Positions 6,829 to 21,959 of a DNA stretch of 21,959 nt are shown in pieces (position 1 is the stretch's first letter; each line of letters opens with the position of its first letter). The DNA lies in IMG/VR virus record IMGVR_UViG_3300046007_008395, positions 1 to 21,959 of that record. One strand, given 5' to 3'. The stretch is from a virus. The position numbers and the translations under genes were made by a program. The notes beneath the pieces are model-generated. The model was given only the letters and a program-made list of their open reading frames with translations. It had not been told where the DNA came from and ran no database searches.

Positions 6829-8043
6829 ATGGCCATTACCGGCGTAGACATGCAGTTGAAAGTCAAGAAGCAATCCGCGCTGGGGACAATCGCCAGCGGC
6901 GGCAGCGGCCAGTTGTTGCGCCGCGTGCAATCCACCCTGAATTTCAAAAAGGACGCCTACCAGTCGAACGAGATCCGCAGCGATTACCAAGTCCAAGATT
7001 TCCGCCACGGCGCGCGTAAGGTAGAGGGCTCAATTTCGGGCGAAATCTCGGCGGGCACCTATTCGTTGCTGATCCAGTCGGCAATGCGGCGCGATTTTGC
7101 TGCCGTCACCGCGATTACCGGCCTCTCGGTCACCATCGCAGGTTCAGGTCCCACTTACACAATCACCCGCGCCTCTGGCGACTTCTTGGCCGGCAACATC
7201 AAGGCAGGGCACGTTGTTCGCTTGAGCGTCGGCACATTGAATGCGGCCAACATCAACAAAAACCTGCTCGTGATCAGCGTCACGGCAACAGTGTTGACCG
7301 TTGTGGTGCTCAACGGTGTGGCAATGGTCGCAGAAGGCCCAATCGCCTCCACCACCGTCACGGTGCAGGGCAAGGTGACATTCTGCCCGCAGACGGCGCA
7401 CACCAACGACTTCTACACCTTTGAGCACTGGTATCCAACGCTCTCGCCAACGGCGTCTGAGTCGTATTGGGATTGCAAAGTCGGCGGCTTTAACATCAGC
7501 CTGCCACCAACAGGCATTGCCACGATCGAGTTTCCAATCATGGGCCTCGATATGCTGGCCGCTACATCTGAGGCGCTCACGTCACCAACAGCGGCCACCT
7601 CGACGGGTGTGCTCGCCGCGGTCAATGGCGTGCTACGCAATGCTGCGGGTGCATTGGCCAACGTCACTGGTTTGACCATCAACGTGACGAACAACAACAG
7701 CATGGCAGGGCCGGTGGTTGGTCTCAACAAGTACGTTGATATTGTCAACGGACGCCACATGGTCACCGGCCAGCTCACGGCCATTTTTGATAGCGTCACC
7801 CTGCGTGATGCCTTTATCAACGAGACCGAATTGGCGCTGTACGCTGCCTTCACGGCAGACAACACCGCCGCCGCCAGCTTTATCGCCATCACCATCGATC
7901 GCCTGAAGTTGGGCGCGGCCGACCGTGATGACAGCGAAGGTGTCAAGACCGTCACGCTGCCGTTCACTGCCTTGCTGAACAGCCCAGGCACCACCAGCAC
8001 AGACGTCACGACGCTCCGCGTGCAAGACAGCGCAGCGCCGTAA
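6829..8043 (+). CDS. Major tail tube protein (404 aa)
   Basis: Start chosen at ATG 6829, since AGGAG (6818-6822) is six bases before it. The ATG at 6823 directly abuts that site and is too close. The protein forms the stacked rings of the non-contractile tail tube. Family features are the opening MAITGVDMQLKVKKQ, an early KVEGSISGEISAGTYSLLIQ segment, and late strands such as DRDDSEGVKTVTLPF that end the fold in phage tail-tube proteins. Residues about 95-180 (ITGLSVTIAG to VTVQGKV) look like an inserted beta domain. Two hairpins flank the gene. No sheath gene follows, which is why a siphovirus tail is inferred. Confidence 0.85.
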   Translation: MAITGVDMQLKVKKQSALGTIASGGSGQLLRRVQSTLNFKKDAYQSNEIRSDYQVQDFRHGARKVEGSISGEISAGTYSLLIQSAMRRDFAAVTAITGLSVTIAGSGPTYTITRASGDFLAGNIKAGHVVRLSVGTLNAANINKNLLVISVTATVLTVVVLNGVAMVAEGPIASTTVTVQGKVTFCPQTAHTNDFYTFEHWYPTLSPTASESYWDCKVGGFNISLPPTGIATIEFPIMGLDMLAATSEALTSPTAATSTGVLAAVNGVLRNAAGALANVTGLTINVTNNNSMAGPVVGLNKYVDIVNGRHMVTGQLTAIFDSVTLRDAFINETELALYAAFTADNTAAASFIAITIDRLKLGAADRDDSEGVKTVTLPFTALLNSPGTTSTDVTTLRVQDSAAP

Positions 8044-8088
8044 ACCTTTTCGGGCATTTGCCGCGCATTTGCCTGCAACCCCAGCACG

Positions 8089-8133
8089 CCGCCGCTGACT
8101 GCCCATTGTGTCTCCGCACAACGCAGTCGGCGG
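8089..8133 (+). other. Long stem-loop between tail-tube and chaperone genes
   Basis: CCGCC (8089-8093) pairs with GGCGG (8129-8133), GACTGC (8097-8102) with GCAGTC (8123-8128), and TTGTG (8106-8110) with CACAA (8117-8121), closing a six-base loop. That gives 16 base pairs with small bulges. No T-run follows. It sits in the 123-base gap after the tail-tube stop and may stabilise the tube message or reduce downstream expression. Confidence 0.65.
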
Positions 8134-8166
8134 GTCGGGCGGCATTACTGAAAGACGGAGACAACA

Positions 8167-8556
8167 ATGGATCTCGATTTAGGCACCTATGACCCGCGCG
8201 ATTTGAACAACAAAGGCGCGTGGATCGACATCAAAAAAGCCGGTGAAGAGACCGGCATCACCATTCAAGTCGTTGGCTTGTATAGCGACGTGGTGCAAGC
8301 CCACCAGCGCAAAAAGTTTGCCGAAATGCAGCGCGAGAAAAAGCGCGGCAAAGAATTCAGCCTCACGCTCGATGAGCTTGAAGAGCGCACCGCCGAATTC
8401 TGCGCCATGTGCACGCTGGACTGGAAAGGTGTGAAGGTCAAGGGCGAGGTGGTCAAGTTCGACGCCAAGCTGGCCTTGGCGCTCTACAAAAAGCACCCGT
8501 GGATTACCAGCCAGCTCAACACGGCCATTGCCGAGGAAGCTAATTTTTTGGGCTGA
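8167..8556 (+). CDS. Tail assembly chaperone, gpG-like (129 aa)
   Basis: ATG at 8167 has a ribosome site (CGGAGAC, 8156-8162). The protein is charged and mostly helical, with DIKKAGEETGITIQVVGLYSD near the start. A central basic-acidic helix (HQRKKFAEMQREKKRGKEF) is followed by EERTAEFCAMCTLDWKGV and a C-terminal helix (LALALYKKHPWITSQLNTAIAEE). It sits between the tail tube and tape measure genes, as lambda G does. G-type chaperones hold the tape measure during tail assembly. The last codons contain a T TTT TTG slippery sequence that would allow a fraction of ribosomes to continue into the next frame. The family call rests on position, size and the frameshift. Confidence 0.85.
   Translation: MDLDLGTYDPRDLNNKGAWIDIKKAGEETGITIQVVGLYSDVVQAHQRKKFAEMQREKKRGKEFSLTLDELEERTAEFCAMCTLDWKGVKVKGEVVKFDAKLALALYKKHPWITSQLNTAIAEEANFLG
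8533..8550 (+). promoter_or_regulatory. Predicted -1 ribosomal frameshift site (T TTT TTG)
   Basis: In the G frame the codons read GCT AAT TTT TTG GGC TGA. The heptamer T-TTT-TTG occupies 8544-8550 and matches the X XXY YYZ rule. Slipping back one base puts ribosomes into a frame that is open to 8948 and encodes a conserved-looking chaperone T domain. A GAGGAA (8533-8538), five bases upstream, could act as an internal Shine-Dalgarno stimulator. I see no convincing close downstream pseudoknot. Confidence 0.85.
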
Positions 8557-13291: not shown

Positions 13292-16200
13292 TGGCTGGCA
13301 TTGTTCAAGACCCTACCACCGGCGGCCAAGAAAACCGGCGCGTCAATGCCTTTTTGCGCGGCCCGATTGTGGCTGGGCAAACCGCACCGCGTTACAACCT
13401 CGCCGTCGAAGCAGAGGTGCGCAATGGTGTGCTACATCAGGCCGTGCTCAATACGCTGCCAAGCCCGCGCGATTCACTGGCAAACGATTTTGGCGTGCAG
13501 ACGTCTGGTGGGTTTGATGCCACGATTATGGCCACAGATTTGCTGCCCGACACCTACAGCGCAGATGGCCATTGGGATGGCTATTCGCTTGTCTCGCTCT
13601 ACGGCGAAAACCCGTCGTCGTTTACGCGCAATTTGCCGATCCCGGTGCCGGATCACGAAGGCGTATATCGGTGGACACTGCCGGATGAATTCGCACCGGC
13701 AGCGGGCTGCCGAAGGATCGAAAACCTCATCAACCGCATCGCAGGCGCGAACACGATCACGCTGGCGGGCGTCACGTTGTCCGGGGCGACCCTAAGCAGC
13801 ACGCCTGACGCGGACGGATTTTACACACTGACGCGCACCAGTGCTGCTCTGAATTGGGCAAATCTCACGTTTGAGTCATTAAACATTGGCTACTCGATGG
13901 CAGACAGGCAATTCACGCCGTCGGTTGAGGTAAAGCGTGTTTCGGTCGATACCCTGTTTACAGTGCTGGCGTCGGACGTAACCACCACAACAAAATCGTC
14001 ACCGTTATACACGGCTGTCGCTGACGCCAAGCTCTATGCGGCCACACTTTCCGGTTTTGCCAACACTGGCTTTATAGGCGCGATCGGCATCGGTCTGTCG
14101 AACAACGGAGACGCGATTAAAATTCGCTTCCCGCAATGCGAAGACGTGACCGGCGCAAGCGTCAAGGGGCCGTCCCAACGTGTGTCTGTTGGCGCGGTCA
14201 GCGCGTGGCCGTTTCACGGTTTCGGCAAGGACGGCATCGTATGGAGTCGCGCATTCAATGCCAACACAGTGAATGCCACAACCGGCGTGGTCACGGTGGC
14301 GACGCCCACTCAGCAACGACAGGCATGGTTCTACCTGCCTGGGCGAACAGGCAACACGCTCAGCACGCCAAGTGCCGCGGCCAATCAAATCGCGGGTGAT
14401 CTCGTCATCATTGCGCAGATCGTCGTGCCGGCGGTTGCGGCGGTCAGCACCATTCTCGAAGGCTCGTATGCAGGCGCTTCGACAAACACCAATTTTCTTT
14501 TTCAGTACGCGGCGGGGCCGCTACGCTACTATTGGGCGGTCGGCAGCTCGCTGTTTTCAGTAGACAGTGCCGACCTGTCCGCATCGGTGCCGCCTGGCTC
14601 GCTGGTGGTTGTCCGCCTAAAGCACACCGTCAACAGTGCCGGCAATCGCATCGTCGAGTTTGCGTGGTCTTACGACGAAATCAATTGGACGGTGCTCACT
14701 ACATCGACCAGTGCCACCGGCGTCGGCAATCGCAACGTCGGCGCAAACACTTGGTACATCGGCGCATGGCAAGGCCTCAACGATCCCTACGCTGGCCGCA
14801 TTTTGCAGGTGAAAGTCTTCAACGGCTTCGCCGCCACCACGCCGGCGGTGTGGGCGGATGCAGGGCGATTTGCCGTCGGTGCCAGCACCGCCGTCATGTC
14901 CACCGGCGAAACGTGGACGGTCAACACCAGCGGCGCGGGCAACGTCGCCCGAATCGCCGAAGCCTTCACCGACGCCACACAGCGGCCATCACGTCATGAT
15001 CCAGCTGAGGCGCAGCTCAACACCACCGCACTCGGCTCGTGGGGCGGCACGGCAGCGGTCACCAGCGGTGCCGTTGACGCCGCCGGCACCGCCGCCGCCT
15101 TCACCGTTGCCGATGCTGATGCGGCCAGCCTGCTTTCTCGCGATCTGGCGTTGACAGTCGCCAACGACGCACTCACGCACTCGGTGCTCTGGCCAGTCAA
15201 AAAAGACGCCACACCGCGCGCCACCCGCGCCATCGGCTGGCTGGTGGCATACAGCGGCGGCACCGGTATCAGCAACAACGTGTTTTTCGATACCAGCACG
15301 GGCGAGATCGCCGTGACGGGTGCGGGCGGCGCCACGGCCACCGTCGATGGCGACACATTGCAGGATTGGTGGCTGGTGCGTATTTCGCACGCAAACAACA
15401 ATCTCGGTAACACCACTTGGACGCTCACCTTCTACCCAGCCGCCGGCACCACCTTGGCCACCACCGCCACCGCCACCACCGGCAGCGCGATCGTGATGGA
15501 GCCAACCATCGTCAAATCCGCCCGGGTCTCGTCGTACAACACCCGCAGCGGCGGCACGCGCAACGAAGCCGCGCTGCAGTTTGCCGCATCGGTGGTCAAT
15601 GACCCCGAGGGCATGGTCTACCTCGAGGCGCAGCTTGACGCCATCCCTGCGGCTGACGTGGTGCTCATCGGCGACAGCGGATCCACCCGGGCGTTGGCGA
15701 TGGTGCCGCAGTCCGCTAATAAGAAGTTCGGCACGCGCGATGGCACCAATACCGTCAATGCCACCAGCGCCCGCGACACAGCCCGCAACCGGCTGGCCGT
15801 GGCATGGTCTGGCGCGGTGCAGGATCTGTGCGTCAATGGCACCATCGAGACCGCTGCCGGCGCGTATGACGGGGCATTCTCGCCTACGCTTTTAAACATC
15901 GGCGCAGCCAATACCAGTGGCAGCGCACCATCTGGCTCGATCGGCCCCATCAAGTGGGCCAAAAAACGCCCACCCACCAGCTACCTCACCAGTTGCAACG
16001 CCGCCCGCGATCTTTTCTCACGCGGTGATTTCGACACCATCCGCGATAACAGCAAAGGCACGACATGGGAGCTTGAGATTCTTTCGCAGCTCACGCGTGC
16101 CAACGGCGCTTCGATCGAGCTGACTGACGTGCGCCGCGCCGTGGCCAAGCGCATCTCGGTCACGAAAAACAAACTCTCGCTGAGTTTTGCCGACATCGAT

Positions 16201-18803: not shown

Positions 18804-19552
18804 GCTTGCTTTACACCAGCCGCATCATCCCGACCACCGCCACCGCCACCAGCGCGGCCAGCGGCTATGCGGCCACCAATGTGCTACTGCAAGCCCTCGG
18901 CGCACCTTGGCGCTCGACCTCTACCGCGCTGCAAGATGTGGTGATCGACTTAGGCTCCGCACAAACGCCACGCGGCATCGGCGTGCAAGACACCAACGCC
19001 ACCAGCATCGTCATCGCATCGAGCGCAGACAACATCACCTACACCGACCGCGCCACGCTGGACCTGACCAACGTTGATCGCTTCAACCGTCGGCGTGGAT
19101 GTGCCGGTGTGAATACGTCTGCACGTTACTGGCGCCTGCGTATTGCTTCAGCCACGGCCCCGGACGGCTTGGCCTATTGGCGCATCGGTGCGGTCTATGT
19201 GTTTGGTGCGGTGACGGATGTGATCCCGCCGCAGTATGGCTTCAGTGTCCGCAGCAACCACAACGAGAGCCGAGAGCAGCTCGCCAATGGCCGCGAAGCC
19301 ATCGCCGCAATCGGCAGTAGAGCGGATTTGATCAGCGGCAAATTCGGCGTGCAAAGCACAGGGCCAATGGTGATCGGCTCACTCTTGGCGGATCTGCGCA
19401 CCGGCTCGGTGTGGCTGGATATGCAAGTGACCGCACGGCCCAGTTGGACATGGCCGCTCATCAACGCTGCCGGCAGCGATGACGAAACGATGGATATGAA
19501 CACGCCGGATTACACAACGATTTCACTAAACGCACGCGAGGTGGTGGGATGA
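18800..19552 (+). CDS. Tail protein with galactose-binding-like (discoidin-type) N-domain (250 aa)
   Basis: Start chosen at ATG 18800, which overlaps the previous stop (ATGA). A longer frame to a TTG at 18761 gives an implausible leader. Residues about 10-135 follow the discoidin/F5-8C layout: YAATNVLLQALGAPWRS, then DVVIDLGSAQTPRGIGV, SADNITYTDRATLDL and a closing ARYWRLRIASAT. This jelly-roll fold often binds glycans. Residues about 140-250 have strands (PQYGFSVRSNHNES, then WLDMQVTARPSWTWPL) like a tail-baseplate adaptor. With the neighbouring lectin-like giant protein, this supports a role in recognising surface sugars. Domain calls come from pattern only. Confidence 0.65.
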   Translation: MSLLYTSRIIPTTATATSAASGYAATNVLLQALGAPWRSTSTALQDVVIDLGSAQTPRGIGVQDTNATSIVIASSADNITYTDRATLDLTNVDRFNRRRGCAGVNTSARYWRLRIASATAPDGLAYWRIGAVYVFGAVTDVIPPQYGFSVRSNHNESREQLANGREAIAAIGSRADLISGKFGVQSTGPMVIGSLLADLRTGSVWLDMQVTARPSWTWPLINAAGSDDETMDMNTPDYTTISLNAREVVG

Positions 19553-19884
19553 AAGACTTTGACTGGCATGGGTTCGAGCTGATCACCGCCGTGCTCGGCT
19601 TTATCGGAGCGGCGCTCGGTATTAGCTACAGCCCGCCAATGACCAAGAAAGAAATGTTCGCCGCACTGCTCGCCGGGGTAGTGTGCGCGGTGCTGGGGCC
19701 ATCACTCGTGATGCAGGTCTACACGTTGCCGCCGATTGTGAACAACGCGCTGGCGTTCGTTTTTGGTATTGGCGGGATGTTCATCGTGCCTGGCTTGCTG
19801 TCGATCTGGCGCGGGTTCGCAAACGACCCGTGGGCGTGGCTTGATAAGTTGCGGGGCACCACCAAGGCGGGGGGTGACAAGTGA
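19549..19884 (+). CDS. Putative holin, three membrane segments (111 aa)
   Basis: ATG at 19549 overlaps the previous stop (ATGA) and follows GAGGTGG (19539-19545). Three hydrophobic segments at about residues 10-28, 36-58 and 65-87 are separated by short loops. The end is polar and basic (WLDKLRGTTKAGGDK), a typical class I holin layout. The size fits holins. It opens the lysis cassette ahead of another small membrane protein, DUF5675 and Rz/Rz1. A holin would permeabilise the inner membrane at the set time. No family is recognised with certainty. Confidence 0.7.
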   Translation: MKDFDWHGFELITAVLGFIGAALGISYSPPMTKKEMFAALLAGVVCAVLGPSLVMQVYTLPPIVNNALAFVFGIGGMFIVPGLLSIWRGFANDPWAWLDKLRGTTKAGGDK

Positions 19885-20198
19885 TTGAGCAGATCCTCAA
19901 CAGCACTGCTTTGGTCATGGTGTGCCTGTGCATGCTGCTCTATATCAACAAACACATGAACCGTCACACGGCGGGCTGCGAACGCTGGGGCTTTGTGCTT
20001 ACTGCCGCCGGGGCGTTCGGCCACGCCTGGGGCTACTGGTGGCCTTGGGGTGGTGGCGACGAAGTGGAGATCATCCTGCACATTGGCTTGGCGCTGGTGG
20101 CCGTGGCGATGGTGCGCGGCGATTTGAGAGAGATGCTCAACCGCGCAAAAGCGTGGGACGGCAAAGAGAGAAGGGGGAACTGTGAATCTATTACTTGA
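19881..20198 (+). CDS. Small membrane protein, second holin or antiholin (105 aa)
   Basis: GTG at 19881 overlaps the holin stop (GTGA). Hydrophobic stretches occur at about residues 6-24, 36-54 and 62-80. A basic linker (NKHMNRHTAGCERWG) sits after the first, and the C-terminus is charged (LREMLNRAKAWDGKERRG). The shape resembles small phage membrane proteins annotated as putative holins that begin with a short hydrophobic helix, then an Arg/His linker. A holin/antiholin pair is plausible; the two roles cannot be assigned from sequence. Confidence 0.6.
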   Translation: MIEQILNSTALVMVCLCMLLYINKHMNRHTAGCERWGFVLTAAGAFGHAWGYWWPWGGGDEVEIILHIGLALVAVAMVRGDLREMLNRAKAWDGKERRGNCESIT

Positions 20199-20622
20199 GC
20201 GCAGACCATCTGGCGCCACCTGCACCATCGGCGACCTTTACATCGACGGCGATTGGTTCTGCTTCATTCTTGAAGACATCGTGCGCGAAGTCGAGGGCCA
20301 GCCGGTCGAGAGCTGGAAGGTGAAAGGCAAGACCGCCATCCCCGCCGGCAACTACAAAGTGCAGATTACCTACAGCAACCGATTCAAGCGCGACCTGCCG
20401 TTGCTGGTGGGTGTGCCGGGCTTTGAAGGCATCCGCATTCACACGGGCAACACCGATGCCGACACCGAAGGCTGCTTGCTGCCGGGGCTGGCCTTGGGGC
20501 TGGGGGGCGAGAGTGTCAGCCGCAGCCGTGAGGCATTCGAGGCGCTATACGCCAAGCTACATGCAGCCGAGGATGCCGGTGAGGAGATCGAGATCACCAT
20601 CACCAGTGCGGGGCAGATGTGA
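20182..20622 (+). CDS. DUF5675 family protein, candidate cell-wall enzyme (146 aa)
   Basis: GTG at 20182 has a strong ribosome site (AAGGGGGAA, 20171-20179) and overlaps the previous gene by 17 bases. The sequence matches the DUF5675 pattern: an opening LLLERRPSGATCTIGDLYIDG, then TAIPAGNYKVQITYS and FEGIRIHTGNTDADTEGCLL. Conserved polar residues are His87, Asn90, Asp92, Asp94, Thr95, Gly97 and Cys98. The His...Gly-Cys arrangement recalls the HG...[ST]-HGC motif of L,D-transpeptidases, though no catalytic role is established from this. It stands where an endolysin would normally be, between two holin-like genes and the spanins, and no lysozyme, amidase or peptidase motif is seen elsewhere. 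The family call is firm; activity is inference. Confidence 0.85.
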   Translation: MNLLLERRPSGATCTIGDLYIDGDWFCFILEDIVREVEGQPVESWKVKGKTAIPAGNYKVQITYSNRFKRDLPLLVGVPGFEGIRIHTGNTDADTEGCLLPGLALGLGGESVSRSREAFEALYAKLHAAEDAGEEIEITITSAGQM

Positions 20623-21203
20623 TCACCGCACTCCGCATGTGGCTAGATGTTGCCTTCCCGCTGTGGCGCATCGCTGCCGCTTTTGCTGTGGTGGCCGCAT
20701 TCGCCGCGGCGGTTTGGTGGATACGCGACACCGGCGTGCAGGCAGAACGTGAGCGTTGGCAAGCCAAGATGGCGACGGCCAAGGCCGAATGGCAGGCCGA
20801 ACTCGACAAAGCCAACGCCGCCAACCGGGCCACCGAACGACAAAGCGCCCAAGTGATCGCTGACGTTTCAACCTACTACCAAACGGAGCTGAAAAATGCA
20901 CAAGCCCAAAAAACTGCTGATCGTGATGCTGTGCAGCGCGGTGGCCTCCGGCTGTTCGACCCCTTTTTCACCAGCGGGCAAGACACTTGCCGAAAGCTGC
21001 CCGGCGCCCGTGAGGCTCTCGCCGCCGCCGGCGGACGTGATGGTGAAACGGGAAGCGAACTTTCGAGACCGACTGCTGCAAATCTTCTCGACCTCGCCAA
21101 CGACGCCAACGCCATCGTCGCCCAGCTCGCCGCTGCCCAAGCTGTGATTGTGGAGTACCAGCGGGTTTGCGGAGCGCCCGCGCCCGCGTCAGGCGGCCCG
21201 TAG
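20619..21203 (+). CDS. Rz: Inner-membrane spanin, Rz-like (194 aa)
   Basis: GTG at 20619 overlaps the previous stop (GTGA). A single membrane segment (residues about 13-35, FPLWRIAAAFAVVAAFAAAVWW) is followed by a periplasmic coiled coil (residues about 40-100, rich in Ala, Glu, Lys and Gln), ending near ELKNAQAQKTAD. This is the i-spanin layout: N-terminal anchor plus helical rod that spans the periplasm and fuses the membranes with Rz1. Residues after about 105 contain two Cys and a Pro/Gly-rich end. This last part is encoded over the Rz1 gene, which constrains its sequence. Confidence 0.9.
   Translation: MITALRMWLDVAFPLWRIAAAFAVVAAFAAAVWWIRDTGVQAERERWQAKMATAKAEWQAELDKANAANRATERQSAQVIADVSTYYQTELKNAQAQKTADRDAVQRGGLRLFDPFFTSGQDTCRKLPGAREALAAAGGRDGETGSELSRPTAANLLDLANDANAIVAQLAAAQAVIVEYQRVCGAPAPASGGP
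20896..21147 (+). CDS. Rz1: Outer-membrane lipoprotein spanin, Rz1-like (83 aa), nested in Rz
   Basis: ATG at 20896 with GGAG (20885-20888) as ribosome site. The gene lies wholly inside Rz in the +1 frame. The protein has a lipoprotein signal: basic start (MHKPKK), hydrophobic core (LLIVMLCSAV), and lipobox A-S-G-C with Cys20 as the lipidated residue. The mature 64 residues are Pro/Ser/Thr-rich (LSPPPADV near the middle and a Pro/Ser tail). This matches o-spanins, which join Rz across the periplasm to fuse the membranes. Confidence 0.88.
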   Translation: MHKPKKLLIVMLCSAVASGCSTPFSPAGKTLAESCPAPVRLSPPPADVMVKREANFRDRLLQIFSTSPTTPTPSSPSSPLPKL

Positions 21204-21213
21204 CGCCGCGCGA

Positions 21214-21675
21214 TCAGCCCGGCGGTGGTATGGTAGCCGCCCACGCGGCCCGATGAGGGCTAGAGTCGACGCGGTTGCCAAGCCATGCGGCATAAGCCGC
21301 GCTGTCAAACGGCACCAGACGCACGCGGTCGTTGAGCGCCAACATGGCCGCGCACGCTGACTGGTGCGGTCGCCACATCACCGGCTCGCCAAGCCAGTCT
21401 TGCATCTGCGAATACCAGACCAACGGCATAGATTCCGGCTTCTGCCCGTCGTGAGCGTCGATGTTGTCTTGGATCGCGTCAAGCATCGCGTCGATCGCGC
21501 GCTCGCGCCAGTCAGCCAGTTCCCGCATGCGTTCAACGACGTCGGCGGGTACGGCGCGTTTGCCGTCCTCCCAATGTTGCCAAGCGCGATGAGACGTGCC
21601 TGAAATCATCGAGGCCGCCTCTTGCTGCGTGAAAAAAAGCAAGCGCCGAAGCGCTTGCAGTTCGGTGGCGGTCAT
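21214..21675 (-). CDS. YdiL-like (DUF1870) helix-turn-helix protein (153 aa)
   Basis: Residues 1-70 (TATELQALRRLLFFTQQEAA, then HRAWQHWEDGKRAVPADVVERM) closely follow the N-terminal pattern of E. coli YdiL, a helix-turn-helix protein of the DUF1870 family. The Trp-x-x-Trp-Glu-[DN]-Gly-Lys motif sits near residues 32-39. After it come a helical linker (ERAIDAMLDAIQDNI) and a C-terminal half containing WYSQMQDWLGEPVMW and HQSACAAMLA, unlike a pure DNA-binding protein. ATG at 21675 lies three bases after the stop of the upstream minus-strand gene, so the two form an operon. The gene converges on the spanin genes with a 10-base gap. It is probably a transcriptional regulator or antitoxin-type partner. 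Confidence 0.75.
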   Translation of the reverse strand: MTATELQALRRLLFFTQQEAASMISGTSHRAWQHWEDGKRAVPADVVERMRELADWRERAIDAMLDAIQDNIDAHDGQKPESMPLVWYSQMQDWLGEPVMWRPHQSACAAMLALNDRVRLVPFDSAAYAAWLGNRVDSSPHRAAWAATIPPPG

Positions 21676-21678
21676 CGT

Positions 21679-21959
21679 TCAAATTTCAACGCGAACGATA
21701 AAACTGGCGGGAATGTCATGTTCAAGCGTGAAATCGCCGTTTGAAGCGACGGTTTTGCCAAAAATCACACCATCAACCATTTTGGTGAAAACTGCCGTCT
21801 GCTCTTGCGAATGGTCGTCAATGTAGAAAATGTTGGTGTTTTCGTTCATCACCAAATAAGAGCCGCTGTTTAGCGCGTTCCAGCGCGGCAAATCTTTTGA
21901 AAGCAAAACATCGAACCAATCACCACCTCGGGACGCGACTGCCCAAACGCCGGATGGAC
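21679..21959 (-). CDS. Unrecognised minus-strand protein, 5' end beyond the window
   Basis: The frame is open from the TGA at 21679-21681 to the window edge on the minus strand. A TTG at 21906 marks an in-frame codon but not a convincing start. The residues encoded upstream of it (SGVWAVASRGGDWFDVLL) look like real protein, so the gene continues past 21959. The visible part (about 92 residues) is beta-rich and acidic, with SYLVMNENTNIFYIDDHS and GDFTLEHDIPASFIVRV. It precedes the YdiL-like gene in the same direction, with a three-base gap. I do not recognise it. Base composition is lower in GC than the phage genes beside it, which suggests separate acquisition. Confidence 0.6.
   Translation of the reverse strand, partial: PSGVWAVASRGGDWFDVLLSKDLPRWNALNSGSYLVMNENTNIFYIDDHSQEQTAVFTKMVDGVIFGKTVASNGDFTLEHDIPASFIVRVEI

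Follow-up and report, generated by a model that had tools for sequence, protein, structure and literature searches.

Phages with Gram-negative hosts follow an established lysis route, from holin through endolysin to spanin. The virus record analysed here (21,959 bases, hereafter the window) carries a lysis cassette and raises the question of which of its products cuts the cell wall. The original prediction had described the cassette as two membrane proteins, a DUF5675 protein and Rz/Rz1, with no known endolysin family among them. Pfam, PHROG, hydropathy and lipobox analyses upheld this composition (Table 1), and neither Pfam nor PHROG gave a cell-wall hydrolase match for any cassette gene. Since the window is probably a fragment, it cannot by itself demonstrate that an endolysin is absent from the rest of the genome.

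Table 1. Features of the lysis region and the adjoining loci in the window (aa, amino acids)
Feature	Position	Strand	Basis
Holin candidate, a small membrane protein with 3 hydrophobic segments	19549..19884	+	weak phrog_2359 (holin) match, 4.9e-7; hydropathy
Another small membrane protein, with 2 hydrophobic segments; candidate second holin or antiholin	19881..20198	+	hydropathy; kept in relatives
DUF5675 protein (146 aa, soluble), the proposed endolysin	20182..20622	+	PF18925, 1.1e-32; AlphaFold pLDDT 91.7; exchanged with M15_3 at its locus in other phages
His87 codon	20440..20442	+	invariant in 72/72 distinct family members
Cys98 codon	20473..20475	+	invariant in 72/72 distinct family members; putative nucleophile
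Rz, inner-membrane spanin	20619..21203	+	phrog_2466, 4.4e-15; PF03245, 6.5e-8; one N-terminal hydrophobic segment
Rz1, lipoprotein spanin of the outer membrane, encoded within Rz in a different frame	20896..21147	+	phrog_3198, 1.2e-5; lipobox ASGC read from the sequence
Aca2/YdiL-like regulator	21214-21675	-	PF08965, 8.4e-23
75-aa ORF	21679-21906	-	no family match

The DUF5675 gene starts with GTG, preceded by a strong Shine-Dalgarno sequence (GAAGGGGGAACTGTG). Its product matched PF18925 (DUF5675) with 112.7 bits against a gathering cut-off of 26.7, and residues 4-127 covered positions 1-113 of the 114 in the profile, which places the protein in this family over the full domain. In PHROG it fell into phrog_1501, labelled 'unknown function' (1.3e-25). 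The dN/dS of the gene was 0.07-0.18 among five closely related sequences (the window, three viral contigs and a contig of a Rhodocyclaceae MAG), and this purifying selection together with the family match ruled out a chance open reading frame. The best 19-residue hydropathy mean was 0.98, without a hydrophobic segment, so the protein is neither a SAR endolysin, for which an N-terminal signal-anchor segment is missing, nor a membrane protein. A spanin or holin identity was ruled out by its solubility.

The gene neighbourhood was then compared across relatives. The gene of the holin candidate was kept beside DUF5675 in three related viral contigs (L002, G002 and G003) and in the Rhodocyclaceae MAG contig (L086); the second membrane protein had no Pfam or PHROG family match. 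As is typical of an endolysin gene, the DUF5675 gene of the window is encoded in a lysis cassette with a candidate holin and spanins. At 28 of 46 distinct DUF5675 loci, a gene for a small membrane protein lay on the same strand no more than two genes away; this held for 156 of 949 other genes on the same contigs (p 7e-11). In Campylobacter phage PC11 an annotated holin is three genes from DUF5675, and in Thiohalocapsa phage MD03 the DUF5675 protein is annotated as 'peptidoglycan hydrolase' and lies near an Rz-like spanin. In the microvirus Dulem virus 260, the DUF5675 gene shares four bases with the gene of a short hydrophobic protein that has a lipobox-like LTSC (L059, 4039-4254) and could act as holin or as a spanin-like partner. 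On the other strand of the window, the 75-aa ORF is followed by the Aca2/YdiL-like gene. A short ORF with an Aca2-like regulator is the layout of anti-CRISPR loci, and the ORF is thus an anti-CRISPR candidate, by association only.

In two other groups of phages, the place of DUF5675 was found to be held in close relatives by a known class of wall peptidase. In the Bacteroides fragilis phage VA7 the gene order is gp15 (DUF6549), gp16 (DUF5675), gp17 (membrane-type) and gp18. Phage B124-14 has the same neighbours, with proteins 93-99% identical, and at the place of gp16 a 131-aa Peptidase_M15_3 (1.8e-23). The two phages share 95.5% DNA identity as far as VA7 position 7808 and 93.9% from 8269, and the break between them is the DUF5675 gene (7810-8271), coinciding with the gene ends. 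M15_3 held this place in all six of B124-14, NCTC, Barc2635, BF344P1, BF8P1 and B40-8, and BF766P1 carries DUF5675 there as VA7 does. The M15 gene bears the RefSeq/NCBI label 'endolysin' in B124-14 and B40-8. A DUF6549 coiled-coil protein adjoins DUF5675 or M15_3 in these phages (L068, 7203-7808; L143, 6765-7370) and may act as a spanin in Bacteroides phages; gp27 of crAss001, a 'lysis regulatory protein', gave a weak DUF6549 match (0.0017).

A further exchange was found in ssDNA microviruses. Microviruses retrieved from IMG/VR by their capsid protein contained no DUF5675, so the GenBank microvirus set was taken instead. In the complete microviruses RodF7_5 and RodF8_16, the DUF5675 gene lies directly upstream of Rep, the replication initiator. 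At its place in RodF7_5, bajarodmic 601 and 1034 encode Peptidase_M15_3 (4.5e-18 and 2.2e-17, respectively); their MCPs are 46-49% identical to that of RodF7_5, and scaffold, pilot and Rep are homologous. M15_3 in microviruses had earlier been proposed to be a horizontally acquired endolysin (PMC3394797). The swaps in B. fragilis phages and in microviruses together indicate that DUF5675 is exchanged for the same wall-peptidase class in two unrelated virus groups. The M15_3 endolysins of both groups resemble DUF5675 in place and neighbours and in being soluble single-domain proteins of similar size, but there is no detectable homology, M15_3 being a zinc peptidase family and DUF5675 having an invariant His and Cys. 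An obvious holin is lacking in microviruses, which counts against the endolysin reading as far as the route to the wall is concerned.

Known endolysin families were sought in DUF5675 records and in controls. The search covered five families, and the results showed Phage_lysozyme in 0 of 35 DUF5675 records and M15_3, Amidase_2, GH19 and SLT each in 0 of 38. As controls we used 26 contigs of more than 30 kb that share the terminase with a close relative, searched for four families with SLT excluded; portal relatives of the window had been dropped as a control set because the fragments were too small. One control has DUF5675 and none of the four families. An endolysin family was present in 10 of the 25 controls without DUF5675: six Phage_lysozyme (PF00959), three GH19 and one M15_3, the last a weak match below the cut-off. 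The contrast between the two sets gave a Fisher p of 2e-5 with kinship ignored. Since a family was detectable in only 10 of 25 control phages, some DUF5675 genomes may hold an undetected endolysin.

The annotations of Vibrio phages 1.226.O and 230E39-1, Campylobacter phage DA10, Curvibacter phage PCA1 (first 50 kb) and Bacteroides phage VA7 list no endolysin, and no canonical endolysin was seen among the predicted ORFs of G002, a close relative of 38 kb. The first and last 195 bases of G002 (L136+L137, 38139 bases) are nearly identical and an integrase lies at 14371-15399, suggesting a near-complete temperate phage that is close kin of the window; its Rz region differs from that of the window, and DUF5675 is retained. 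Weak matches, all below the curated cut-offs, were obtained for a permuted papain-like Peptidase_C92 in G002 and MW202455 and for C93 in phage MD03, and these proteins may serve either as peptidases of the tail or as wall enzymes. If such a C92/C93-like protein, or one encoded in a missing part of the genome, were the true endolysin, DUF5675 would be a lysis regulator or accessory. The weak matches in three DUF5675 genomes and the probably fragmentary window fit this explanation, but C92 is absent from that place in the window and in G003, the five common families occur in none of the DUF5675 genomes tested, and the M15_3 exchange recurs in two lineages; we consider it highly improbable. In crAss001, DUF5675 is gp30 of the annotated cassette gp27-gp30, and gp89, far outside the cassette, is a Glucosaminidase (1.2e-20), so that DUF5675 is not always the sole wall enzyme. 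DUF5675 takes the place of known endolysins in relatives and, with crAss001 as the one exception, the survey revealed no consistent coexistence with a canonical endolysin. Gene place and gene content thus make the DUF5675 protein very probably the endolysin of this phage, and the proposal made originally is strongly supported by the two independent M15_3 exchanges together with the absence of the tested families.

A tblastn search placed DUF5675 in at least 173 phage records, among them Vibrio, crAss-like, Bacteroides and Campylobacter phages as well as microviruses of 5-7 kb; the members from microviruses and from crAss, Vibrio and Campylobacter phages that this search brought up also retain the His and GC. 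The polar motif reported in the original prediction, H87 TGNTDADTEG C98, is present in the window protein as described. Across 72 distinct sequences, part of them retrieved by patterns containing GNTDADT, Gly56, Tyr58, Gly89 and Gly97 are invariant along with His87 and Cys98; Asn90 and Asp94 are each kept in 70 of 72, as is Thr95 (Thr or Ser). Asp92, which had been counted in the motif, is not generally conserved. The conservation of the His87...Cys98 motif is far beyond chance. DUF5675-like domains also occur within phage proteins of 1251 aa (Ralstonia phage RP31; BFVD A0A1L7N1E2) and 868 aa (BFVD A0A8S5VTR0), which are possibly virion-associated wall enzymes.

The His and Cys had been likened to those of L,D-transpeptidases. 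In a Pfam scan of 40 DUF5675 members, Tlde1_dom was touched by nine (best 0.011) and YkuD by four (best 0.0053), with the aligned stretches stopping at the GC motif, and every other non-DUF5675 family was matched by one member only. The curated cut-offs were reached neither for YkuD (PF03734; 14.4 bits in the member L055 versus 23.4, the window protein having no match) nor for the Tlde1 domain (PF10908; 16.6 versus 30.1 bits). The L,D-transpeptidase motif is H-X14-17-(S/T)HGC-hydrophobic (PMC9638812), and that of DUF5675 is H-X7-(T/S)-X-GC-hydrophobic. The order His ... (S/T)-x-Gly-Cys-hydrophobic of YkuD-type L,D-transpeptidases and Tlde1 effectors is kept, but the His-Cys spacing is shorter, with a His-to-(S/T) gap of 7, and the His preceding GC is not conserved. 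The weak matches that end at the GC motif could also mean that DUF5675 modifies the wall, as an L,D-transpeptidase or carboxypeptidase trimming or editing cross-links in the manner of the T6SS effector Tlde1a, while an unrecognised protein is the main cutter. Tlde1a, a carboxypeptidase/exchange enzyme, has a motif that likewise ends in (S/T)HGC-hydrophobic (PMC9638812), and the crAss001 glucosaminidase would suit such a division of labour. This is unlikely in our judgement, as DUF5675 substitutes one for one for a peptidase between unchanged flanks, and microviruses of 5-7 kb leave hardly another gene for cutting.

Structure prediction gave confident AlphaFold models for the window protein and for L055 (pLDDT 90.2), and no solved fold was matched at all: Foldseek against the PDB found no significant match for either model. 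The highest query TM-score in the PDB list of the window model belonged to the L,D-transpeptidase 4lpq (TM 0.34, E 0.66, not significant), and the viral structure library returned only DUF5675 relatives and unlabelled proteins. An hhalign comparison against five YkuD domains gave no significant match (probability 1.6%) and aligned only TEGCLLP with SHGCIRM, and PDB sequence searches with the window protein and with the 40-member profile found no relative. Within the endolysin reading, DUF5675 might cut peptidoglycan at a different bond and be unrelated to L,D-transpeptidases, with a separate fold and a convergent His...GC site. The two confident models without a significant structural match, the YkuD comparison and the gap of 7 instead of 14-17 residues are in keeping with this; YkuD and Tlde1 as the sole other Pfam families matched by more than one of the 40 members, and 4lpq at the head of the TM-scores, speak against it, and we regard it as possible but doubtful. 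Taken together, the invariant His and Cys, the weak profile matches and the lack of a significant fold or hhalign match make L,D-transpeptidase-like chemistry a plausible lead and leave YkuD membership unsupported; the proposed likeness thus persists at the level of residues and weak matches and found no confirmation in the structural or profile-profile comparisons. Cysteine-histidine chemistry through Cys98 and His87 is likely, judging from the sequences, and L,D specificity is suggested tentatively by analogy.

We infer that DUF5675 cuts the wall and that Cys98 and His87 are catalytic. Gene place and the lack of an export signal would put the protein on the holin-endolysin-spanin route: it would be made without an export signal and be released to the periplasm once the holin opens the inner membrane. 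There it would attack the peptide stem of peptidoglycan through Cys98, with His87 assisting. The bond cut may be that after mDAP3 (L,D-endopeptidase/carboxypeptidase), which would open 4-3 cross-links; this is a guess from the resemblance to L,D-transpeptidases. Rz/Rz1 would then clear the outer-membrane barrier. Beyond this phage, we lean towards the view that DUF5675 forms a widespread unrecognised class of Cys-His, L,D-transpeptidase-like endolysins in ssDNA microviruses, in crAss-like phages and in numerous other tailed phages that infect Gram-negative hosts, undergoing single-gene exchange with M15 peptidases.

Among known systems, gp30 of crAss001 and its relatives belong to PF18925 like the window protein, to which they are 37% identical, and their cassette is annotated 'lysis regulatory protein/holin'. 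Depositors of crAss-like genomes label DUF5675 'L,D-carboxypeptidase/transpeptidase', as an annotation only, and the literature searched held no paper arguing for, testing or surveying this label. A crAss001 paper mentions a late-gene 'holin, endolysin' module and does not name the gene (PMC8375218). The Vibrio phages Virtus and R21Y have PF18925 ORFs reported as hypothetical or domain-containing proteins; in Virtus a TM-helix protein follows it, and the paper on this phage names no endolysin. Where the literature searched mentions the family, no function is given, and nothing on point was found there on L,D-transpeptidase endolysins or crAss lysis. Within that literature, DUF5675 seems not to have been described as an endolysin, and neither its occurrence in microviruses nor its exchange with M15 in two lineages seems to have been reported.

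The M15/DUF5675 exchange makes the endolysin reading directly testable in existing isolates. If it is true, PF18925 and phrog_1501 would gain a function that applies to at least 173 phage records, and the likely lysis enzyme would be named for cultured crAss-like and Bacteroides phages and for some microviruses. A cysteine-based class would then be added to the endolysins of Gram-negative phages, whose other members belong to known families of glycosidases, transglycosylases, amidases and peptidases.
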